NCBI GenBank assembly: GCA_014237465.1
Contig: JABZFM010000023.1
Span: 1-64,000 of the forward strand
Length of the DNA stretch: 64,000 nucleotides
Source of the DNA: Desulfobacteraceae bacterium
Lineage (GTDB): Bacteria > Desulfobacterota > Desulfobacteria > Desulfobacterales > Desulfosalsimonadaceae
Direction: 5' to 3'
A program made the position numbers and the translations under genes. Position 1 is the first letter of the stretch. Each line of letters opens with the position of its first letter. Below the pieces are notes generated by a model that worked only from the letters and a program-made list of their open reading frames with translations, did not search any database and was not told where the DNA came from. Of the stretch, positions 35,684 to 49,280 are shown one piece after another.

Positions 35684-35722
35684 AAAAAAAAGCGGAGGGG
35701 AATAATTCCCCTCCGCTTTTTT
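35684..35722 (-). terminator. Strong intrinsic terminator after the main pilin gene
   Basis: AGCGGAGGGGAA pairs perfectly with TTCCCCTCCGCT around a three-base loop, flanked by A and T runs, so it can work on either strand. It lies 25 bp past the pilin stop and would separate abundant pilin mRNA from the downstream genes. Confidence 0.92.
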
Positions 35723-35746
35723 GTCAAAAAAATAATTTATTTGGGT

Positions 35747-36151
35747 TTATTGAGCCAGACATTTCTGATATATGCCGGCATTCCATCCATCACCCTGGGC
35801 GTTTACCGGATTGGCGGTCATGTAATCTGCCGGGCAACGGGCGGATACATCAGTTACGGTAATAGTTATGGCAACATTAGCATCAGTTGCCCCCACAGTG
35901 AACGTGTTTGAGTCCGGAATGAAATTTACATCAGCTGTTGCTATAGCAGTGTGTGTCGGAACAGCAAAGTAATCGGCAATATCTGAGGCGATGTTATTGG
36001 CATCGGATTCCGCCTTGCTGCAGAAGGATTTATTACGATAGGCGATAAAGTTTGGGATTGCGATGGCGGCCAAAATACCGATAATGGCGATAACGATCAT
36101 CAATTCGATTAATGTAAAACCTTTTGTGTTTCCTCTAAGTTTTTGCAACAT
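35747..36151 (-). CDS. Type IV major pilin-like protein
   Basis: 134 residues from the ATG at 36151, which follows AAGGAGAC; an ATG at 36220 lies beyond two copies of a short repeat and is not the start. Leader MLQKLRGNTKG, then FTLIELMIVIAIIGILAAIA with Glu at mature position 5, the classic type IVa class. The mature protein is about 123 residues, short, with cysteines in KSFC, ARCP and QKCL. A sigma-54 promoter lies upstream and a strong terminator downstream, as expected for a highly expressed pilA. I leave the symbol empty because several pilin paralogues are likely. Confidence 0.9.
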   Translation of the reverse strand: MLQKLRGNTKGFTLIELMIVIAIIGILAAIAIPNFIAYRNKSFCSKAESDANNIASDIADYFAVPTHTAIATADVNFIPDSNTFTVGATDANVAITITVTDVSARCPADYMTANPVNAQGDGWNAGIYQKCLAQ

Positions 36152-39672: not shown

Positions 39673-41721
39673 ATGTCTCAAAAAAAAGTGTTCAATTATA
39701 CGCTTTCCGGATTCATGCTTGTCGCTCTCGTCTTTATTATTTACTCAAATACGTTTAAATCCCCTTGGCTCTTAGATGACTATCATAACATATTGGATAA
39801 CCCCAAAATACAGATTAGCAGCTTATCCTTGAAAAGCATAAAAGGAAGTTTTTTTTCCTCTCTGGCGACACCTGAAAAGCTCTACCGCCCTTTGTCATGC
39901 GCAACATTCGCCCTGAACGCCCTTTCCGGCGGAAAAGATGTCTTTGGATATCATTGTGTAAATATTTCACTTCATGCGGCAACATCACTAATTCTTATGT
40001 GGCTCCTGATTCTTGTTTTCAGAACCCCGACATTTGAAAAAATTCCCGACAAGGAAAAACATTTTATTGTCTTGCTTTCAACAGTTCTCTGGGCAGTAAA
40101 TCCTATTCAGATTCAGGCCATCACATACATTGTTCAGAGAATGGCCGCATTATGCGCTTTTTTTTCACTTATGTCGCTCGGATTTTTCCTCAAAGCGCGT
40201 TTATCTAATTCCAATAAAGAAAAAATCTTCTATGCGATTTTTTCCGCGGCAGGATTCACATGCGCTTTTTTTTCAAAGGAAAACGGTTTCACCACCCTTT
40301 TCCTGATTTTAGCCTTAGAGTATTTTCTTTTCAGAAATGGAGATTATAAGATACTGGCAAGAAAAGAATTTATCCTTGTATTTTTGATTTTTATTCTTCT
40401 ATCCGCTTGCATTTTATTTTATTCAACCAACTTTTCGTATTTGCAGGAACTTTACGAAAAAAGGCTGTTTACTTTATATGACCGCCTTCTCACCCAGCCT
40501 AAAGTTTTGCTGTATTATTTGTCTCTTATTTTTTATCCATTGCCTCAACGACTTTCCCTTGAACATGAAATTATTATCTCCACCGGTATTTTTTCACCAC
40601 CCCAGACTTTTTTTTATCTGATTATTGTTATTTCGTCTTTTTGTGTCTGCATTTTTTTTAAACGAATTCCCCTTTTGATAAGACTTGGTATTGTATTTTA
40701 TTTCATGGCACACAGCGTGGAATCAAGCATACTGCCACTTGAAATAGCGTTTGAACACAGAAATTATCTGCCGTCCGCATTTCTTTTTCCGCCTGTAGCG
40801 GCAGGCCTTTACCACTTATTAGATCATTTTAAACATAGAAAAAAGCATATGCGGACTATGATAATTTTTTTCATCATCGCCATAATTTTTCTAACCAGTC
40901 TTTCAACATACAGCCGAAATTTTGACTGGCATTCTGGTGAAGCAATCTGGTTTGATGCCATGAATAAAGCGCCTGGACACGCCCGGCCAAAGCAGTCCAT
41001 GGGGTTTGTCATTGGAATGAGAAATCCTGAAAGAGCCCTGAATTATTATTCAAAGGCGTTAACCGGCTATATGCATGATCCAAAAGAAGAAAAGGCCTCA
41101 ACTCTTGCGAATATAGGACTGATCCATTATCACCTGAAAAATTATAAAAATGCCCGACATTTTTTTAAACTGGCTGTTGAAACCGATGAAACCCACCAGA
41201 TTGCTTATAATTTTCATATAAAAACGTATATGAAGGAAGGCGCATGGGTTAAAGCAATTGAGATGATCAACAAAAACCGGAATCCGGCCGCATTCGCAAG
41301 ACTGAAAGCCGCCTGCCTTCTGCACACCGGAGATTATAACCAATCACTTGATATTTCCAGAAAGATTTACCGGAATAATCCAAAAGACCAAAACGCTTTG
41401 TTGAACATAGCAGAATCGCTCAGTATGACTGGGCATCACCAAAGGGCAGATTTTTTTTATGACATTTATATTTCAAACCATTCTGAAGAACCTCATGTGT
41501 ATCTGAGAAAATCAAAAAATAATTATGTGTACGGCGATTTAGAAAAAGCTTCTGAGCTATTAAGTGTTTTTTTTCAAATAACCGGTGCTGAAAAAGCCGG
41601 AAATTATTTCCAAAAAATTAATACAGATATTATGTTTCCAATAATTGGGATTGAAAAAATGACGGCTTTTTTTGAAAGCGAATTTGAAATTTTTAAAAAA
41701 AATATCAAATTATTGAGTTAA
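39673..41721 (+). CDS. Second TMTC-like GT-C membrane protein with TPR repeats
   Basis: 682 residues with the same plan as the protein at 33523-35622: about ten membrane helices, the loop motif WLLDDYHNI with its Asp-Asp pair, RPLSCATFALNAL, QIQAITYIVQRMAALCA, EHRNYLPSAFLF, then TPR repeats from about 430. The two are clearly paralogues but not a recent duplication. A protein O-glycosyltransferase role is inferred from the TMTC-like layout. It stands alone on the plus strand, 204 bp after ppdK, and converges with aroC. Confidence 0.72.
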   Translation: MSQKKVFNYTLSGFMLVALVFIIYSNTFKSPWLLDDYHNILDNPKIQISSLSLKSIKGSFFSSLATPEKLYRPLSCATFALNALSGGKDVFGYHCVNISLHAATSLILMWLLILVFRTPTFEKIPDKEKHFIVLLSTVLWAVNPIQIQAITYIVQRMAALCAFFSLMSLGFFLKARLSNSNKEKIFYAIFSAAGFTCAFFSKENGFTTLFLILALEYFLFRNGDYKILARKEFILVFLIFILLSACILFYSTNFSYLQELYEKRLFTLYDRLLTQPKVLLYYLSLIFYPLPQRLSLEHEIIISTGIFSPPQTFFYLIIVISSFCVCIFFKRIPLLIRLGIVFYFMAHSVESSILPLEIAFEHRNYLPSAFLFPPVAAGLYHLLDHFKHRKKHMRTMIIFFIIAIIFLTSLSTYSRNFDWHSGEAIWFDAMNKAPGHARPKQSMGFVIGMRNPERALNYYSKALTGYMHDPKEEKASTLANIGLIHYHLKNYKNARHFFKLAVETDETHQIAYNFHIKTYMKEGAWVKAIEMINKNRNPAAFARLKAACLLHTGDYNQSLDISRKIYRNNPKDQNALLNIAESLSMTGHHQRADFFYDIYISNHSEEPHVYLRKSKNNYVYGDLEKASELLSVFFQITGAEKAGNYFQKINTDIMFPIIGIEKMTAFFESEFEIFKKNIKLLS

Positions 41722-41837: not shown

Positions 41838-42893
41838 CTAACTACGAATCGCCCGCTGCCGCATCAAATGATCAACTATCACCAGGCTCACCATGGCTTC
41901 GCAGACCACATTGATCCGGGGTATTGCGGAGATATCGTGACGGCCCTTGATTGAAATTCGGGTGGGTTTGTTTTTGGTATCAACGGTTTTCTGCTCGATG
42001 CTGATGGACGGGATCGGTTTTACCGCAACCCGGACAATAACTTCATCACCATTGGATATCCCCGCTAAGATACCACCGGCGTTATTGCTTAAAAAACCAT
42101 CCGGGGAAATCGGATCATTGTTTTGTGATCCGCGCTGGCCGGCTGCACGAAACCCGGAACCGATTTCAACGCCTTTGACCGCACCGATACTCATCAAAGC
42201 TTTTGCAAGATCCGCATCCAGCTTGTCAAATACCGGCTCCCCCAGGCCAGGCGGAATATTTTTTGCCCTGATTTCCACAATGCCGCCCAACGAATCCCCT
42301 TCCTGCTTGACTCTGTCAACCTCTTCTTCCATCATTTTTGCCGCCTGCAGATCTGCGCATAAAAACATATTTTTATTGATCGTTTGTTGATCAAACGTCT
42401 CCGCCCTGATGGTTCCAAGAGCAATTGTGTGGGCCAAAACCTGCATATTTTCCTTTTTTAAAACCGCATTGGCCACGGCCCCGGCCGCAACACGACCCAC
42501 GGTTTCACGGGCAGATGACCGGCCACCGCCGCGCCAGTCACGGATTCCGTATTTTGCCTGATAAGTAAAATCCCCGTGTCCCGGCCGATAAATATCGGCA
42601 ATTGACTGGTAAGCGCTTGATTTGGCATCGCGGTTTTCCACCATAATCATAATCGGCGTACCGGTCGTCTGATTTTCAAAAACACCGGAAAGAATTTTCG
42701 CTGTATCTGATTCCTTGCGGGATGTGCTCGTTATTGATCCGCCGGGACGGCGTCGGTCCAGCATTTCCTGAATGACCGATTCATTCATTTCAATTCCGGG
42801 CGGGCACCCGTCAACCACCACACCAACGCCCTTGCCGTGTGATTCTCCCCATGTTGTGAGTTGAAACAATTTCCCAAATGAACTACCTGACAT
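41838..42893 (-). CDS. aroC: Chorismate synthase
   Basis: 351 residues, normal length. GESHGKGVGVVVDGCPPG (about 14-31), GDFTYQAKYGIRDWRGGGRSSARET (about 110-135) and the later NNAGGILAGISNGD are family signatures for binding reduced FMN and EPSP. It removes phosphate from EPSP to give chorismate. Last gene of the aromatic operon, 160 bp after aroA; that gap holds a 14-bp tandem repeat. Confidence 0.97.
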   Translation of the reverse strand: MSGSSFGKLFQLTTWGESHGKGVGVVVDGCPPGIEMNESVIQEMLDRRRPGGSITSTSRKESDTAKILSGVFENQTTGTPIMIMVENRDAKSSAYQSIADIYRPGHGDFTYQAKYGIRDWRGGGRSSARETVGRVAAGAVANAVLKKENMQVLAHTIALGTIRAETFDQQTINKNMFLCADLQAAKMMEEEVDRVKQEGDSLGGIVEIRAKNIPPGLGEPVFDKLDADLAKALMSIGAVKGVEIGSGFRAAGQRGSQNNDPISPDGFLSNNAGGILAGISNGDEVIVRVAVKPIPSISIEQKTVDTKNKPTRISIKGRHDISAIPRINVVCEAMVSLVIVDHLMRQRAIRS

Positions 42894-43025: not shown

Positions 43026-43063
43026 TTACCTTCTACCTCTTACCTTCTACCTCTTACCTTTCA
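43026..43063. repeat. Short tandem repeat TTACCTTCTACCTC
   Basis: Two exact 14-bp copies (43026-43039 and 43040-43053) and a partial third (TTACCTTTCA) that contains the aroA stop codon. Slippage here could alter the aroA-aroC spacing or the very end of AroA. Confidence 0.8.
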
Positions 43064-44334
43064 TATAACCCGTCAAACACTTTCCAGTATGTGGGGAATG
43101 ACTTTTCAACACAATGCTCATTTTTTATTTCTATTCCAGGCACCCTGAGTCCGGCAACAGAAAAGCACATGGCAATGCGATGATCATCATACGTCTCAAT
43201 AACCGCACCATGAGGCTTACCGCCGGTGATGATCAGGTTGTCTGATTCAGATTTTGCCGATATTCCCATCTTGGTCAACTCGTTTATTACAGCGTTTAAA
43301 CGGTCACTTTCCTTTACTTTCAGATGGGATACGTTTTTAATGACCATGATGCCTTTAGCAAATGCGGCAATAACAGCAAGGGTCGGTACCATATCCGGCA
43401 TATCGGCCATATCCACTTCTATGCCGGAAAGTTTGCCGCCGCTAACCGTGATGCCGTCCGATTCATGGATCACCCGGCATCCCATGGCAGACAAAACATC
43501 CACAAAACGAACATCTCCCTGGCTGGATTGTTTGGATATACCGTTTACCTTTATTGCATGGCCTGTTATCGCAGCTGCCGCCCAGAAATAACTTGCCTGG
43601 GAACAATCAGGTTCAACAACGTACCGTCCGCACTGGTATGTAAGACCTCCTGGAATTTTAAAATAATCATACCCGTTTCTGAAAACATCAACACCAAACT
43701 GTGACATGATATCGAGTGTCATATCAATGTACGGCTTTGAGACCGGTCCGTGGGTCACATGAATTTCCATACCATTTCTTGTGTAAGGTGCAATTAACAG
43801 CAACCCGGAAAGAAACTGGCTGCTGATACTGCAGTTTAAATTAACCGTTCCACCGGCGACTTTCGTGCCGATCACTTCAACCGGCGGGCATCCATTATTA
43901 TTTAATGATACCGCTTGCACATCCAGCTGGTTTAAACCGTCCAGTAGATAATGTATTGGTCGTTCATGCATCCGGTCAGAACCGGTTAATATATAGCGGC
44001 CATTGCCGATCGCAGCATACGCTGTCAGAAGCCGCATGGAGGTCCCCGAATTCCCCAAAAAAATAGGTTTCTCATTGGAATCCATATCTCCGTTGCGGCC
44101 GGTCAGAATTACCCCCTCCGGCTTTTTATCACCAGCTGGATTTTTTTCAATAGACGCTCCGAATTGGTTTAATGCAGACAATGTATAATTTGTATCATCG
44201 CTGTCCAGCCAGTTTTCTATGCAGCACGGACCGTTTGATAACGCTGCGGCAATAAATATGCGGTGGGTATAACTTTTTGATCCTGGAACAGTAACCGCCG
44301 TGTCATGAATTTTTTCAGTTTTTATTTTCAGCAT
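43054..44334 (-). CDS. aroA: 3-phosphoshikimate 1-carboxyvinyltransferase (EPSP synthase)
   Basis: 426 residues. PGSKSYTHRIFIAAAL (about 17-32) holds the first substrate loop, GNSGTSMRLLTAYAA (about 94-108) the phosphate loop, and LKVKESDRL and YDDHRIAMCFSVAGL complete the active site. Transfers enolpyruvyl from PEP to shikimate-3-phosphate. The TSMR loop is close to the GTA(M/L)R pattern of the usual enzyme but has Ser in place of Ala. Fourth gene of the operon. Confidence 0.97.
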   Translation of the reverse strand: MLKIKTEKIHDTAVTVPGSKSYTHRIFIAAALSNGPCCIENWLDSDDTNYTLSALNQFGASIEKNPAGDKKPEGVILTGRNGDMDSNEKPIFLGNSGTSMRLLTAYAAIGNGRYILTGSDRMHERPIHYLLDGLNQLDVQAVSLNNNGCPPVEVIGTKVAGGTVNLNCSISSQFLSGLLLIAPYTRNGMEIHVTHGPVSKPYIDMTLDIMSQFGVDVFRNGYDYFKIPGGLTYQCGRYVVEPDCSQASYFWAAAAITGHAIKVNGISKQSSQGDVRFVDVLSAMGCRVIHESDGITVSGGKLSGIEVDMADMPDMVPTLAVIAAFAKGIMVIKNVSHLKVKESDRLNAVINELTKMGISAKSESDNLIITGGKPHGAVIETYDDHRIAMCFSVAGLRVPGIEIKNEHCVEKSFPTYWKVFDGLYER

Positions 44335-44411: not shown

Positions 44412-45509
44412 TCATGCCTGCGCCCGGGGGTATGACCCCAGCAATTTAATATATTTGCAGTAGGGGTTCATCCGTTCAATAGTATGTTTGATTTTTTCAT
44501 CTGCAATATGTCCGTCAAAGTCGACAAAAAAGAAATAGCTCCAGTTTTCGTGTTTTGTCGGGCGCGATTCCATTTTCGACATGTTGATGCCTGACTCGGC
44601 AATTGGCTCAAGGATTTTAAATAATGCGCCGGGAACATGAGAAATGACAAACATGATGGACGTTTTGTCACATCCTGTCGGGTTCGACTCATCGTTGCCG
44701 ATTAACAGAAATCGCGTAATATTGTTGGAGTGATCTTCTATGTTGGTTTCAAGAATCTGCAGCCCGTAAATATGGGCGGCTTCACTGTTGGCAATCGCCG
44801 CGGTCTTTTCTTCCTTCGACGCTTTCTGTGCCGCATGCGCCGTGCTGTTGCACTCGGACAAGACCGCATTGGGAAGGTTTTTTCGTATCCAGCCCCGGCA
44901 CTGGGCAAGTGCCTGGGGGTGAGAATAAATCACTTCAATATCATCGATCCGGCTGGATCTGGACAAAACCGCGTGTGAAATATTCAAATATTTTTCCGCA
45001 CAGATTTTCAGGTCAGATTCAAAAAAAAGATCCAGGGTATGATTAATCGCGCCTTCAATGGAATTTTCAACTGGAACAACCCCATAATCGCACTTGCCTT
45101 TACTCACGTCGATAAAAACATCACGAATCCCGATTTGTGGAATATATGTCGACGAATGACCGAAGAGTTCCATGGCGGCAATATGCGTAAATGTGGCCTC
45201 CGGACCGAGGTAAGATATCTTTGTCGGTGTCTGAATTTCTCTGCATGCGGAAATAATATCCGTAAAAATCTGATGAAGCGCCTGCCGTTTAAAAGGCCCT
45301 TTATTTAAAGCGTTCAGTCGTTGCATAACTTGATTTTCACGGGATTTGTCATAAACAAAATTGCCTTTTTCCTTTTTAATATCCCCGATCTCTTTTGCGA
45401 TTATCAGACGTTTATTAATTAAGTTCAGAATTGATTCATCAATTTCGTTGATGGAAAGTCTCAATTGACTGATTTTACTGTCCGCCTGATTACTCTCAAT
45501 ATCGTTCAT
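44412..45509 (-). CDS. pheA: Bifunctional chorismate mutase / prephenate dehydratase
   Basis: 365 residues. An AroQ chorismate mutase helical domain (about 15-90, LRLSINEIDESILNLINKR), prephenate dehydratase (about 97-270, ISYLGPEATFTHIAA, and the catalytic TRF in NNITRFLLI), and an ACT regulatory domain (about 280-360, GALFKIL and KMESRPTKHENW) which binds Phe for feedback control. It makes phenylpyruvate from chorismate. Third gene of the operon, about 77 bp upstream of aroA. The operon encodes the Phe branch; no tyrA is visible in this window. Confidence 0.96.
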   Translation of the reverse strand: MNDIESNQADSKISQLRLSINEIDESILNLINKRLIIAKEIGDIKKEKGNFVYDKSRENQVMQRLNALNKGPFKRQALHQIFTDIISACREIQTPTKISYLGPEATFTHIAAMELFGHSSTYIPQIGIRDVFIDVSKGKCDYGVVPVENSIEGAINHTLDLFFESDLKICAEKYLNISHAVLSRSSRIDDIEVIYSHPQALAQCRGWIRKNLPNAVLSECNSTAHAAQKASKEEKTAAIANSEAAHIYGLQILETNIEDHSNNITRFLLIGNDESNPTGCDKTSIMFVISHVPGALFKILEPIAESGINMSKMESRPTKHENWSYFFFVDFDGHIADEKIKHTIERMNPYCKYIKLLGSYPRAQA

Positions 45510-45528: not shown

Positions 45529-46524
45529 TTATTTTTCAGTTATGGTTTCATTGATCTTCATGCCAAAATGCCTGCCGCTCTCTTCAATGGCAACCAGCAC
45601 TTTATCCCCCGGGCGTAAGTTGACAACCGAAACCGGCTTCCCGTCCGGATCAGTCAATCGAATGGTTTCAGCATTCTGAAGAATGGTGTTGATTTCTTTT
45701 CCTGCCACTTTGGCTTTAATCAGCATCAAAGGACGTTTTTCAATTTTGAGCCGACCCACCGTACCAACAGTGGCATTACCGGTAAAATCAGTAATCAACA
45801 CCTGGTCACCAGCTGAAAGTTCAGAAAGATAACGCGTTGTGCCGCCGGGCACCCTTGTATACGCGTGCACTGCTCCGGCATTCACCCGGAACGGACGGGG
45901 AGCAACATAGGGATTATCAATACTTTCCGAATGAACCAAAAAAAGTGCGCTGCTGGCATTACCGACCAGCATACCCTCCCCTAATTTCATTTCCGTACAG
46001 GTATCCACGCACACCCGGTCACCCATGCCGACCGGTTTAATTTCCGTAATTTCAGCAACGTCAAGGGGAATCTGATCAGTTTTTGCGCTAAGGACTCGGA
46101 GTGCCTCTTTTAGCTCCAATAAATTATTGGTACAGAAAAGGATATGGTCAACACCTTTTTCAAGGATTCCAAAAGCGGTTTGTGCTTCTTCCAGGCTATG
46201 AACCTGAGCAATCACGCCACTGGCGCCCTTGGCGATCAAATTTTCCAGTGGAATAATGGACCAGTCCGTACATTCCAGAATTACTTTTTTGTCATGGCAC
46301 AGCTTCACAATTTCGTTTTCATCTTCACCGCTTTGAATTTTAAACACCACGACGTCCTCACCCGGCTTAAGATCACCGTCATCCGATATAGTCTGTATAC
46401 GCCCGAGCGCTTTAACTTTTTCAGCATAACCGGACGGCACCATCACGCCATCAACGCCGCCTTCGATGGCAGTGGTAACCAGTTTTTTATCCCAGGGGTC
46501 TATTTTTACCCAGATCTTTTGCAT
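45529..46524 (-). CDS. 3-dehydroquinate synthase II (archaeal-type AroB')
   Basis: 331 residues from the ATG at 46524, preceded by GGAGAGGA; an ATG at 46542 would place that binding site inside the gene. WVKIDPWDKKLVTTAIEGGVDG at the start, VGNASSALFLVHSE and RPFRVNAGAVHAYTRVPGG are signatures of the family that converts 2-amino-3,7-dideoxy-hept-6-ulosonate to dehydroquinate with NAD. This replaces the DAHP synthase/AroB route. It lies directly after its partner aldolase gene. Confidence 0.93.
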   Translation of the reverse strand: MQKIWVKIDPWDKKLVTTAIEGGVDGVMVPSGYAEKVKALGRIQTISDDGDLKPGEDVVVFKIQSGEDENEIVKLCHDKKVILECTDWSIIPLENLIAKGASGVIAQVHSLEEAQTAFGILEKGVDHILFCTNNLLELKEALRVLSAKTDQIPLDVAEITEIKPVGMGDRVCVDTCTEMKLGEGMLVGNASSALFLVHSESIDNPYVAPRPFRVNAGAVHAYTRVPGGTTRYLSELSAGDQVLITDFTGNATVGTVGRLKIEKRPLMLIKAKVAGKEINTILQNAETIRLTDPDGKPVSVVNLRPGDKVLVAIEESGRHFGMKINETITEK

Positions 46525-46626
46525 GAGCTGTATCCTCTCCATTTTTTTGACAAGATTATATCTTTCATATGAATTAAAGAAAACCGAAGCATGAAATTAA
46601 ATTTTATTATGTTTCCATATAATTTG

Positions 46627-47424
46627 CTATTCAAGAATTTTTAATGCATCGTCAACCGACCCGTTATCAAATAGAATTGAAGCCATAGCTTTAACCATCT
46701 GTGTAGGATTTTTATGCTGAAATACATTTCGGCCGATTGAAACCCCGGACCCGCCGGCGTCAATGGAGCCTTTCACCATTTCCAGAATATTTCTATCAGA
46801 GTCCATCTTTGCCCCGCCTGCGATGACCACAGGGACGGTACAGCCTTCAACAACTTTTGAAAAAGTTTCCGGAGAACCGGTATATGATACCTTTACAATG
46901 TCTGCCCCCATTTCGCAACCCACACGGGCGGCATGCTTTACAACCCCGACATCATATTCATCTTTTATTTTTTCTCCACGCGGATACATCATGGCCAGCA
47001 AAGGAATACCCCAGTTACGACACTCATAACTGACTTTCCCAAAATCATTGAGCATTTCTTTTTCCTGCCCGTTTCCAATATTGACATGAATTGAAACAGC
47101 ATCCGCGCCCAGTTTAATAGCCTCTTCCACCGTACAAACGAGTGTTTTGGCGTCAGGATACATCGACAGGGATGTGGATGCGGACAAATGAATAATCAGA
47201 CCGATATCAGATCCCCCCCGCCGGTGACCGGCACCGATCAGCCCCTTATGCTCGACGATGGCATTGGCACGGCCATCGGCAACCCTGGCAACCGTTGTTT
47301 TGATATCACTAATTCCCTCAATGGGTCCCACGGAAACCCCATGATCAAGCGGTACAATAATTGTTCGCCCCGTGTTTCGATCCATAATCCGTTCCATTCT
47401 AATGTGTTTGCCGATAATTGTCAT
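46627..47424 (-). CDS. 2-amino-3,7-dideoxy-D-threo-hept-6-ulosonate synthase (ADH synthase)
   Basis: 265 residues from the ATG at 47424, set by a strong AAAGGAGA. An in-frame ATG at 47502 would translate part of the adjoining hairpin repeat and is not real. Class I aldolase barrel: [17 protein letters not shown] (Asp and His), DIVKVSYTG with the Schiff-base Lys, and [11 protein letters not shown]. The family joins a 6-deoxy-5-ketofructose phosphate unit to aspartate semialdehyde in the archaeal-type aromatic pathway. First structural gene after the attenuator. Confidence 0.92.
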
Positions 47425-47453
47425 TGTAATTCTCCTTTCGCAGTAGGTTGGTA

Positions 47454-47594
47454 GTGCCCGAACGAAAACCGCCAATTTTTCCAATTTCTGCGTAGGGCTC
47501 AAATTTTAATCCTCAAAATACTCTATGTATTCATCCGGTTAAAATCCTCACCCGCCTTGAACTTGAAAAAATTTTCAGATTTTCATTCAGACAC
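47454..47594 (-). repeat. Structured hairpin repeat between attenuator and operon, copy L4
   Basis: The outer arm at 47454-47468 pairs over 15 positions with 47580-47594 if two G-T pairs are allowed. Inside, on the minus strand, CAAGGC (47559-47554) faces TACGCAG (47494-47488). The adjoining arm GGG/CCC and a longer ATTTTAA arm close the inside, with AATAC/GTATT at the tip. Same plan as the other four copies. Confidence 0.7.
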
Positions 47595-47599
47595 TTGTT

Positions 47600-47638
47600 A
47601 AAAAAAAAGCCGTGAAGATTTTTTTCTCCACGACTTTT
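47600..47638 (-). terminator. Second T-run hairpin of the aromatic leader
   Basis: CGTG-GAGA and TCTTCACG arms (one mismatch) around an A-rich loop, flanked by AAAAA and a run of T on the minus strand. It may be a second, weaker termination or pause site after the main attenuator hairpin. Confidence 0.6.
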
Positions 47639-47640
47639 TC

Positions 47641-47677
47641 AAATAAAAAAGCCGCGGGCATTTGGGCTGCCCGCGGC
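47641..47677 (-). terminator. Attenuator terminator of the aromatic operon
   Basis: On the minus strand GCCGCGGGC pairs perfectly with GCCCGCGGC (47677-47669 and 47659-47651) around a nine-base loop, followed at once by TTTTTTATTT. It lies 24 bp past the leader-peptide stop and 227 bp before the first structural gene. The loop side GGCAGCCC can instead pair with GGGTTTGCC in the leader, forming a possible antiterminator. Confidence 0.88.
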
Positions 47678-47701
47678 TTTGTGTTTTAGTTGTCTTACTT
47701 A

Positions 47702-47791
47702 CTATCGCACAGGCAAACCCTTAGCGTAAAAATAAAAATAGCTAAAATACCAAAAATAAAATTCAAAATTTCTGCCTGTGTTGTGATTCAT
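47702..47791 (-). CDS. Aromatic-amino-acid leader peptide (attenuator)
   Basis: 29 residues, ATG at 47791 and TAG at 47702-47704. Residues 9-22 read FEFYFWYFSYFYFY: six Phe, five Tyr and one Trp in 14 positions. CACAGGCA near the start of the gene is complementary to TGCCTGTG near its end, so the aromatic codons sit in the loop of a pause hairpin; an intrinsic terminator follows. Ribosome stalling at these codons when charged aromatic tRNAs are scarce would free the antiterminator and let transcription run into the ADH synthase, dehydroquinate synthase II, pheA, aroA and aroC genes. The start has an A-rich leader but no clear Shine-Dalgarno. This is the classical phe/trp attenuation plan; the link to this archaeal-type operon is my inference from position. 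Confidence 0.85.
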   Translation of the reverse strand: MNHNTGRNFEFYFWYFSYFYFYAKGLPVR

Positions 47792-47869
47792 TTTTATTTG
47801 ATTGTTTTTTTTATTTGGTTATCTTTATTAGATAATAGGATTAAATTTTAAAAAAATAATGTGAAAGAC

Positions 47870-47900
47870 AATTTCTACGATTCTAAATTAAATGTCAAGT
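47870..47900 (-). promoter_or_regulatory. Possible promoter of the aromatic attenuator transcript
   Basis: TTGACA on the minus strand at 47898-47893, about 100 bp before the leader ATG. A matching -10 is weak (TAGAAA at 15 bp spacing), so only the -35 is convincing. Confidence 0.4.
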
Positions 47901-47950
47901 TTTTTTATACATTGTCGATTAAACAAGTTTACTCAACACCAGAAACTCGT

Positions 47951-48595
47951 TTAATCAATTTTAATCAATGCCGCTGCATTGGCCTGCATTTCTGAAAAAA
48001 ACCCTTCATTTAAACCGGCACCACAAATGACCTGTTTTGCCAATTCATCGTCAATCAGATCCCCCGGGGCGTGGGTGTCTGTATTAATCACCATTTTTGT
48101 GCTGATTCTTTCAGCAAGGCGGGCCACATGCCCGTTTGCCAGGGAGTGGCCTTTTCGGGCGGTAATTTCCAGCAGCACATTTTGATCTTTAGCCGCCCTG
48201 ACATCATCGTCTGAAATCAATCCCGGATGCGCAAGTATATCGGCACCGGCATCTATGGCTGCACGATTGGTTCCCGTTGCCACCGGCTCGACAATGGTCT
48301 CTCCGTGAACGATAACGATTTTTGCACCCAGGTCTCTTGATTTTTTAATCGTATCAGCAATTAAAGACGGCGGCACATGCGTTATTTCGATACCCGGTAT
48401 TATTTTAATTTTTAATACGGGATTCAGTTCATCTGCGATCGCAACGAGTCTTGGAATAATAAAATCAATATTTGAAAAGTCGCCATGGTCTGTGATGCCG
48501 ATTGCAGAAAGCCCCTTATGTTCCGCCCGTCTGGCAAGTTCCGCCGGGATTAAATCCCCGTCACTGAATATCGAATGCGTATGCAGGTCAATCAT
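47951..48595 (-). CDS. PHP-domain phosphoesterase (histidinol-phosphatase type)
   Basis: 214 residues. Metal-binding PHP motifs are present: MIDLHTHSIFSDGDL at the start, ITDHGDF (about 35), EITHVP, VHGET, ADILAHPG and INTDTHAPGDL. Small stand-alone PHP proteins hydrolyse phosphate esters; histidinol phosphate is one possible substrate but not proven. It ends 160 bp upstream of the aromatic leader, so it is probably a separate transcript. Confidence 0.82.
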   Translation of the reverse strand: MIDLHTHSIFSDGDLIPAELARRAEHKGLSAIGITDHGDFSNIDFIIPRLVAIADELNPVLKIKIIPGIEITHVPPSLIADTIKKSRDLGAKIVIVHGETIVEPVATGTNRAAIDAGADILAHPGLISDDDVRAAKDQNVLLEITARKGHSLANGHVARLAERISTKMVINTDTHAPGDLIDDELAKQVICGAGLNEGFFSEMQANAAALIKID

Positions 48596-48665
48596 AATTA
48601 AATTGTATCCATTTGACGATGAGTTAAACTCGATGTTCTCATGTTCATGTATGCAGAATGGCTAA

Positions 48666-48775
48666 ATTAAAAATTCCATATACAAGGCGTAGTTATTTTT
48701 CAGGCAAGAAAATCATACATGTAGTATCTTGAGTGCCTGAAAAATAGCTACAACGTAGTAGATGGGATTTTTAAT
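48666..48775 (+). repeat. Structured hairpin repeat, copy L3
   Basis: The outer arm ATTAAAAATTCCAT (48666-48679) pairs with ATGGGATTTTTAAT (48762-48775) at 13 of 14 positions. CAAGGC (48683-48688) faces AACGTAG (48752-48758), next to the arm GTAG/CTAC. TATTTTTCAGGC (48694-48705) pairs perfectly with GCCTGAAAAATA (48735-48746), and ATAC/GTAT forms the tip. This is the best paired copy. Confidence 0.8.
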
Positions 48776-48782
48776 GACGCCA

Positions 48783-49280
48783 TTATACTTTATATTTGCC
48801 AAAATCTTCCGGGGAAAGATCTTTAAGGTATTTTTCCCATTTTTTCCCTTGATCACTGTCATCTACGATCTCATATTCCCCGTCTTTAACCTTCAGGTTC
48901 TCTACCACTGAATCATCCACAAAAATTTCAGCCTTAAGACGCAATGCCAATGCAATGGCATCACTCGGGCGCGCATCTAAAATAAATTCACCATCCGTTG
49001 AGACACAGTAAATTTTTGCATAAAACGTATTATCCTTGAGGTCACAGACTTCGATGCGTGTCACGTTTGCCTTCACTGTTTTAATAAAATTTTTAAACAG
49101 ATCATGGGTCATCGGCCGGTCAAAGGAAATATTCTGCAATACGGATGCAATTGAGGCGGCTTCCAGCAATCCGATCCAGATTGGAATTGAAAAATCTTCG
49201 TCAACGGAATTTAATATAAGGATCGGGGCATTTGAAGATGGATCCATTGCCAGACCGCCGATGATCATTTTATGCAACAT
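48783..49280 (-). CDS. DUF151 (BFN) bifunctional nuclease family protein
   Basis: 165 residues, usual size. ILILNSVDEDFSIPIWIGLLEAASIA (about 20-45), RPMTHDLF and DARPSDAIALALR (about 103-115) are the family's conserved blocks. Bacterial and plant relatives have DNase and RNase activity in reports; the cellular role is poorly known. It overlaps the miaB stop by 11 bp, so the two are co-transcribed. Confidence 0.9.
   Translation of the reverse strand: MLHKMIIGGLAMDPSSNAPILILNSVDEDFSIPIWIGLLEAASIASVLQNISFDRPMTHDLFKNFIKTVKANVTRIEVCDLKDNTFYAKIYCVSTDGEFILDARPSDAIALALRLKAEIFVDDSVVENLKVKDGEYEIVDDSDQGKKWEKYLKDLSPEDFGKYKV

Follow-up and report, generated by a model that had tools for sequence, protein, structure and literature searches.

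Ribosome-mediated attenuation is a classical regulatory mechanism. In the enteric phe and trp leaders, a short ORF carrying codons for the end product precedes mutually exclusive antiterminator and terminator structures and a U-tract, and in enteric trp the control codons lie inside region 1. The read-through state of trp attenuation is accepted to be kinetically determined. Longer and compound arrangements have been described in other leaders. Stems A:B, B:C, D:E and E:F are distinguished in the excerpted account of the Salmonella his leader, with B:C and D:E giving read-through and E:F stopping transcription (PMC4046918), and an extra hairpin in the his attenuator is discussed in an extract of an earlier paper (PMC1183508). 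The Acholeplasma uORFC-13-1 motif, represented by 24 sequences in the available part of its description, combines a putative Phe uORF with a terminator before aroF, the gene for the first shikimate-pathway enzyme (PMC8632094). Salmonella mgtCBR is presented, in the available sections, as a case of tandem attenuators with two attenuation steps in one leader (PMC3641672). A 2013 survey, in the portion available, considered amino-acid attenuators to be possibly of gamma-proteobacterial origin with very few transfers (PMC3766115).

The element described here lies in a 64,000-nt stretch of a Desulfobacteraceae bacterium genome (GenBank assembly GCA_014237465.1, contig JABZFM010000023.1, positions 1 to 64,000; hereafter the window). 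On sequence evidence, we put at about 0.85 the probability that it controls the common aromatic pathway by ribosome-mediated transcription attenuation with coupled tandem terminators. Taken separately, the aromatic leader attenuator as such is very probable on these data, and the coupling of its two terminators through the pairing 4:5 is probable.

The window element resembles the enteric phe (RF01859) and trp leaders in its product-codon-rich short ORF, exclusive antiterminator and terminator, and U-tract. It differs from them in its mixed Phe, Tyr and Trp codons, in control codons placed between regions 1 and 2, in a second, apparently coupled terminator, and in the bacterial group and genes concerned. 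With Salmonella his it shares the logic of a chain of pairings, although E:F is the only terminator in the excerpted his description and the sensor codons differ (PMC4046918). Unlike in his, the middle hairpin has its own U-tract in the window and most relatives, 11 of 78 labelled rows being without one. A his-type six-segment chain implies pairing of segments 4 and 5, which the covariation of 4:5 suggests here, with the reservations given below on the control pair 3:6 and on G-U cells; instead of a single terminator in the last hairpin, the window has a U-tract after both hairpins. The closest published match is the Acholeplasma aroF motif, which belongs to another phylum and to a canonical aroF, and whose description, in the part available, makes no mention of tandem terminators (PMC8632094). 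The mgtCBR leader is described in the accessible extract with two ORFs, two independent signals and no intrinsic terminators (PMC3641672), whereas the window has one ORF and two physically linked terminators.

A search of positions 46000-49000 against Rfam at E<=10 returned sub-threshold matches only; Phe_leader RF01859 scored 32.4 bits, under its gathering score of 55, and a gathering-level scan of the loci of 40 relatives gave no match. The element is not described among the matches listed in searches of the attenuation literature, mostly outside subscription journals, for Desulfo-, delta-proteobacterial, ADH synthase and DHQ synthase II work. In term searches of the available text, Rodionov 2004 on delta-proteobacteria contained none of the terms tryptophan, aromatic and leader peptide, and Naville 2010 none of Desulfo, aromatic and phenylalanine.

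Feature coordinates are collected in Table 1. A sequence-only reading had placed at this locus a phe/trp-type attenuator, made of a 29-codon minus-strand frame with 12 aromatic residues in positions 9-22, an 8-bp complementary pair around the aromatic run, a hairpin and T run 24 nt after the leader, a second hairpin and five downstream aromatic biosynthesis genes. All of these parts were recovered. Translation of the ORF gave 6 F, 5 Y and 1 W within codons 9-22. Region 1, CACAGGCA (47780-47773), is complementary to TGCCTGTG (47715-47708), and the hairpin GCCGCGGGCAGCCCAAATGCCCGCGGC, which begins 24 nt past the leader stop codon, is the sole minus-strand terminator on the scanner list. The second hairpin is absent from that list and was found by our own script and by RNA folding. 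The proposed antiterminator likewise stood, as GGGTTTGCC can pair with GGCAGCCC over 8 base pairs, of which one is G-U, leaving a single U bulged. Pfam and NCBIfam profiles identified the five genes, in the order ADH synthase, DHQ synthase II, P-protein, AroA and AroC after the leader. Beyond what had been proposed, the loop that separates region 1 from region 2 holds the control codons, and the second hairpin appears to be coupled to the first.

Table 1. Features of the leader region and downstream operon (window coordinates)
Feature	Position	Strand	Basis
Putative promoter: TTGACA (47898-47893), 17-nt spacer, weak -10 GAAATT	47870..47898	minus	TTGAC kept in relatives
Leader peptide ORF MNHNTGRNFEFYFWYFSYFYFYAKGLPVR	47702..47791	minus	29 codons; kept in relatives
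Region 1 CACAGGCA, codons T-G-R zone	47773..47780	minus	1:2 pairing z -11.1
Control codons 9-22, 12/14 aromatic	47726..47767	minus	ORF translation
Region 2 GGGTTTGCCTGTG, codons G-L-P-V	47708..47720	minus	Partner is region 1 or region 3
Terminator 1 (3:4 hairpin) GCCGCGGGCAGCCCAAATGCCCGCGGC, then U-tract	47648..47680	minus	Terminator scanner, RNA folding, covariation
Region 3 GGCAGCCC, 5' arm and loop of terminator 1	47664..47671	minus	2:3 covariation, nascent fold
Alternative 4:5 hairpin, 13 pairs, 4-nt loop	47628..47657	minus	Nascent fold with 2:3 held; covariation
Terminator 2 (5:6 hairpin), then U-tract	47603..47640	minus	Own script and RNA folding, covariation
ADH synthase (2-amino-3,7-dideoxy-D-threo-hept-6-ulosonate synthase)	46627..47424	minus	TIGR01949 358.6 bits, cut-off 299.45
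3-dehydroquinate synthase II	45529..46542	minus	PF01959; NF002627 501.2 bits, cut-off 392
P-protein, chorismate mutase / prephenate dehydratase / ACT	44412..45509	minus	PF00800, PF01817, PF01842
AroA, EPSP synthase	43054..44334	minus	TIGR01356 443.5 bits, cut-off 287.25
AroC, chorismate synthase	41838..42893	minus	TIGR00033 428.3 bits, cut-off 212.2

The ADH synthase was searched for in 146 related genomes, with matches in 103. For the order, 78 orthologs, complete or partial and including that of the window, were taken at 66-100% identity; 75 of them have at least 200 nt of upstream sequence. When a locus had to show 6 or more aromatics in 14 codons followed by a terminator no further than 150 nt away (the fixed criterion), leader and terminator were found at 72 of 75 loci of the order, at 67 of 76 named loci (80 loci, 76 with enough upstream DNA) and at 36 of 56 loci drawn across the wider phylum, leaving 3, 9 and 20 loci without; the three sets share some genomes, so the counts are not independent. 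The background rate was 1 in 282 random 500-nt windows of the named loci. The comparison upstream of ADH synthase genes that had been proposed as a check thus came out positive: conservation of both the aromatic run and the terminator extends far outside the circle of close relatives, contrary to the lack of conservation that had been named as a refutation. By script and by eye, an aromatic-rich short ORF is present at 74 of 75 loci of the order, L076 being the exception; these 74 leaders are the 78 orthologs less three with <200 nt upstream and less L076, and the GTG-start leader of L073 was chosen by hand. F and Y occur in all 74 and W in 49, with residue shares of 14.9% (F), 19.0% (Y) and 2.8% (W). 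The element suggests a way for a single peptide to sense Phe, Tyr and Trp alike. The conservation argues that attenuators have a deep, separate history in the former deltaproteobacteria (Desulfobacterota, going by record titles).

Among the named carriers are Desulfatibacillum alkenivorans DSM 16219 (L145) and MAGs named Desulfosudis and Desulfobacca. An aromatic leader with hairpins also precedes ADH synthase in single MAGs labelled Aquificota, Deferribacteres and Spirochaetes (L177, L183, L184), which may reflect transfer or mislabelled (contaminated) MAGs. The second ADH synthase paralog of the window's genome (L079, 55% identical) follows a 51-codon ORF with 9 aromatics in 14 codons; it was not counted as a leader, since it lacks a GLP-type end and inspection by eye showed no GC-rich U-tracted hairpins downstream.

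The short ORF might be a chance reading of a T-rich spacer, with the hairpins serving as constitutive terminators of the upstream neighbour, a PHP-domain gene by Pfam. We give this reading practically no weight. The spacer is indeed T-rich, and no consensus Shine-Dalgarno 4-mer lies ahead of the window leader ATG, which places it among the 36 of 74 leaders without one (one of the 36 masked), as against 38 with one. Yet when the 500-nt stretch ahead of ADH synthase was dinucleotide-shuffled 1000 times, no short ORF exceeded 9 aromatics per 14 codons, compared with 12 in the real sequence, and the random-window background was 1 in 282. The ORF is also kept across families; the leaders hold 26 TTC and 84 TAC codons, with C in the third position, as well as 53 TGG, and it pairs with the hairpin, as the covariation of 2:3 indicates.

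A putative promoter lies ahead of the leader. In 67 of 74 relatives a TTGAC box stands 20-120 nt ahead of the leader, compared with 7.55 expected from shuffles, and relatives aligned on this motif have a T/A-rich -10 zone about 17 nt further on. A consensus promoter scanner returned no sigma-70 site, and a looser full promoter score was only modestly above shuffles.

The window element can form a six-segment chain 1:2, 2:3, 3:4, 4:5 and 5:6, in which 4:5 would join the 3' arm of terminator 1 to the 5' arm of terminator 2; its anatomy and conservation and the covariation of these five pairings were computed. The duplex energy of each segment pair within its own locus was compared with that across loci in 66 of the 74 loci (5000 permutations), the set being the 74 less L017, L049, L069, L089, L099, L100, L031 and L043, in which the second hairpin was absent or mis-assigned. 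Own-versus-cross z values were -11.1 (1:2), -9.8 (2:3), -12.6 (3:4), -6.7 (4:5) and -15.8 (5:6), with 0 of 5000 permutations as low in each case. Wrong partners gave 1.7 (1:3), -0.9 (1:5), -1.6 (2:4), -0.5 (2:5), 0.0 (3:6), 1.0 (3s:6), 1.4 (1:6), -2.8 (2:6; 22/5000) and -1.2 (1:4). These permutations keep shared ancestry in, with the wrong-partner controls as the guard.

Pair counts were taken from a MAFFT alignment of 64 loci (alignment A2, with L041 and L054 left out; A3 holds 56, with eight divergent or U-tract-less rows out). For 3:4 and 5:6 together, 93.6% of cells were paired, with 115 double changes versus 31.4 in shuffles. For 2:3 the figures were 89.0% paired and 23 double-changed cells versus 5.7; the number of double-changed pairs was matched by 32 of 500 shuffles, and slid versions of 2:3 reached up to 20 double-changed cells at far lower pairing. 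Covariation of 1:2, 2:3 and 3:4 thus backs the mutually exclusive protector, antiterminator and terminator pairings, and together with the conserved leader and terminator it supports the phe/trp-type layout that had been proposed. For 4:5, 84.9% of cells were paired and 38 were double-changed versus 16.7 in shuffles, while further pair types were matched by 131 of 500 shuffles. The control 3:6 was paired in 76.0% of cells, with 16 double-changed versus 9.9 (7/500 as high); in two measures few shuffles were as high as this control (6 and 7 of 500), and its covariation score was 0.174 versus 0.163 (40/500).

It is very improbable, although a little less so than a chance ORF, that the nascent peptide itself is the sensor, binding free aromatics while still in the exit tunnel and arresting through a GLP(V/G)VR motif. 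Such a peptide would account for the G-L-P end of the leader, which is strongly conserved within the order. The G-L-P codons, however, are also the nucleotides of region 2, which in some loci co-change with region 3 (for example in L048, L057 and L062), and other lineages keep the terminator behind unrelated ends such as CASTFKR and LRLADR. The CASTFKR-type end was seen in Desulfobacca- or Syntrophobacterales-like MAGs (L143, L144, L149, L151, L161, L195, L196, and likewise L203, L208, L209, L212, L217, L220), where terminator 1 resembles GCCGTGGCGCAGG..CGACCACGGC and the region 2/3 sequence differs in a layout unchanged as far as terminator 1. Further divergent leaders such as YWYYWFSCACGRG occur elsewhere in the phylum (L242, L245, L248-L251), with a terminator of the form GGGCCGC.GGC..GCCGGCGGCCC; the leaders of L242 and L249 fall short of the fixed criterion.

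RNA of the region 47596-47830 folds with a z-score of -7.5, and none of 200 shuffles was equally stable. When the nascent RNA was folded as far as region 3 and a ribosome stalled on the W codon was represented by masking, the 2:3 helix formed (-19.1 kcal/mol); at the same length with the ribosome at the stop codon, it did not (-7.2). With 2:3 held and the RNA grown to arm 5, the 13-pair 4:5 hairpin appeared before arm 6 was out, and once arm 6 had emerged 5:6 was again more stable than 4:5. The 4:5 hairpin overlaps each terminator and is mutually exclusive with both. At equilibrium, full-length window RNA formed both terminators for each ribosome position tried, stalled positions included, and antitermination must therefore be kinetic. 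The 3' edge of a ribosome lies at +16 from the P site. By this footprint rule region 2 would be left free at 10 of the 12 aromatic codons in the window's leader; across the leaders in which region 2 can be recognised (69 of 74), the same holds for 508 of 643 aromatic codons.

We infer the start site, stalling, termination, read-through, dependence on aromatic supply and kinetic order of folding to be as follows. Transcription would begin upstream of the leader, and a ribosome would read its 29 codons. If Phe-, Tyr- or Trp-tRNA were scarce, the ribosome would stall on one of the aromatic codons that lie between regions 1 and 2, leaving region 2 to pair with region 3 and prevent terminator 1 (3:4); the freed arm 4 would then pair with arm 5, blocking terminator 2 (5:6), and the operon would be read. 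With ample aromatics, a ribosome at the stop codon would cover region 2, 3:4 and 5:6 would form, and transcription would end at one of the two terminators. In an untranslated leader, 1:2 would form and both terminators with it. The predicted stop state is {1:2, 3:4, 5:6} and the go state {2:3, 4:5}. Two linked terminators would be a natural design to cut basal read-through.

A plain four-segment attenuator of the trp/phe type, in which terminator 1 is the switch, hairpin 2 a back-up and 4:5 without a role, the likeness of the hairpin-2 arms to the first stemming from an old duplication, is unlikely but deserves weighing. It fits the fact that 3:4 and 5:6 are the most stable folds, and a second hairpin with U-tract was not found in six loci (L017, L049, L069, L089, L099, L100). 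It is at odds with the aro set, where 4:5 reaches the z of -6.7 given above and 3:6 stays at 0.0; in a second, mixed set of 28 other operons, the rival gains ground, as the values are -4.0 for 4:5 and -3.4 for the 3:6 control. Single columns speak to both sides. At columns 104/145, arm 5 is A in 6 of 7 loci with arm-4 U versus 5 of 57 with C (Fisher p 4e-5, relatedness uncorrected), as coupling predicts. Of 34 informative cells with G-U in 3:4, 15 show arm 5 following arm 4, another 15 show it copying arm 3, as duplication would have it, and 4 show neither; copying arm 3 at such cells still leaves a wobble with arm 4. The covariation support for 4:5 is thus partly ambiguous, on account of the mixed-operon control and the G-U cells. 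Coupled terminators are also favoured by the 11 labelled loci in which the 3:4 hairpin is retained without a U-tract and terminator 2 is retained (6 by script, 5 by reading). A 3:4 hairpin of this kind cannot be a usual intrinsic terminator, and it makes sense as a guard of terminator 2. U-tract states were set by reading for L156, L165, L218, L219 and L221 (none) and for seven chosen rows (present). On the ADH synthase tree, the distribution of 3:4 hairpins lacking a U-tract takes 3 changes, only 1 of them forced by branches with good support.

From 56 aro loci, both hairpins together were built into a covariance model, R1. Searched against the window's genome, it recovered the aro element at 47602-47682 with 89.9 bits, this sequence being part of the training set, and next the leader of the trp operon, MNKKIKQNTYAGNYFWWWQADITSLADG, with 53.2 bits, which is outside the training set. 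The trp leader (L186, 607-812) carries WWW and the two-hairpin arrangement of the aro operon, and precedes trpE (TIGR00564 514.1 bits, just below the cut-off of 517.7) and trpG. R1 matches at E<=0.01 were present in each of 40 genomes (own included), among the matches listed, where weak ones can be ordinary terminators. From the matches listed, 29 loci away from ADH synthase were hand-picked; 2 were too short to place and 27 were read.

In the other operons, leader codon content matches the downstream gene. A Trp-run leader precedes trpE at 11 of 27 loci (L274, L276, L279, L282, L305, L307, L310, L312, L313, L316, L317), with TrpE scoring 495-577 bits against TIGR00564 and above the cut-off in 2. 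Trp-run leaders also stand before partial TrpE-like ORFs in 2 loci (L321, L322; by eye, unmatched at the strict profile limit), before a B. subtilis-type DAHPS in 2 (L306, L319), and in 1 (L309) without a visible downstream ORF. Phe-rich leaders precede a DAHPS-prephenate dehydratase fusion (L315; L320 has a similar ORF start by eye) and, in 4 loci (L308, L311, L314 with a weak leader, and L318), a phenylacetate-CoA ligase (TIGR02155, 630-640 bits versus a cut-off of 646.3). The leaders before the ligase suggest that these organisms couple their use of arylacetates to the supply of phenylalanine.

Mixed Phe/Tyr leaders precede a canonical DAHPS in 5 loci (L278, L281, L283, L303, L304), and in L278, L281 and L283 the aromatic run includes Trp as well; Pfam places AroB next to DAHPS in L278 and L281, the two scanned. 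An ADH synthase ortholog was absent from the five corresponding genomes (G045, G049, G037, G042 and G043; G042 is 79% complete), where the search gave no match or distant ones at E 1e-17 to 1e-27. A mixed leader before canonical DAHPS in genomes lacking an ADH synthase ortholog indicates that the aromatic leader stays with the pathway entry despite a differing enzyme, an apparent case of a cis-regulator retained while the enzyme behind it was replaced. The sequence-only reading had linked the element to the archaeal-type pathway; its position before the ADH synthase operon stands, but since canonical DAHPS, trpE and Phe-linked genes are preceded by the element too, it is not tied to that version.

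We lean towards regarding the element as a phylum-wide module of one leader peptide and two coupled terminators, in which codon changes re-aim the switch and which survived an entry-enzyme swap. Within such a module, mixed Phe/Tyr/Trp codons would serve the common pathway, Trp codons trp, and Phe codons the DAHPS fusion and phenylacetate-CoA ligase, and the swap between ADH synthase and canonical DAHPS may have run in either direction. The element could also be a marker for locating the aromatic regulon in mostly uncultured bacteria.

Apart from the aro (on both strands) and trp elements, R1 matches in the window's genome scored at most 36.1 bits, and those read resemble ordinary terminators. 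One of them, at 35685-35751 in the window and with 36.1 bits, lies as a hairpin ahead of a membrane protein and looks like an ordinary terminator. At its start, the protein that follows resembles by eye the TPR membrane protein of 39673-41721, and the two are likely a paralog pair.
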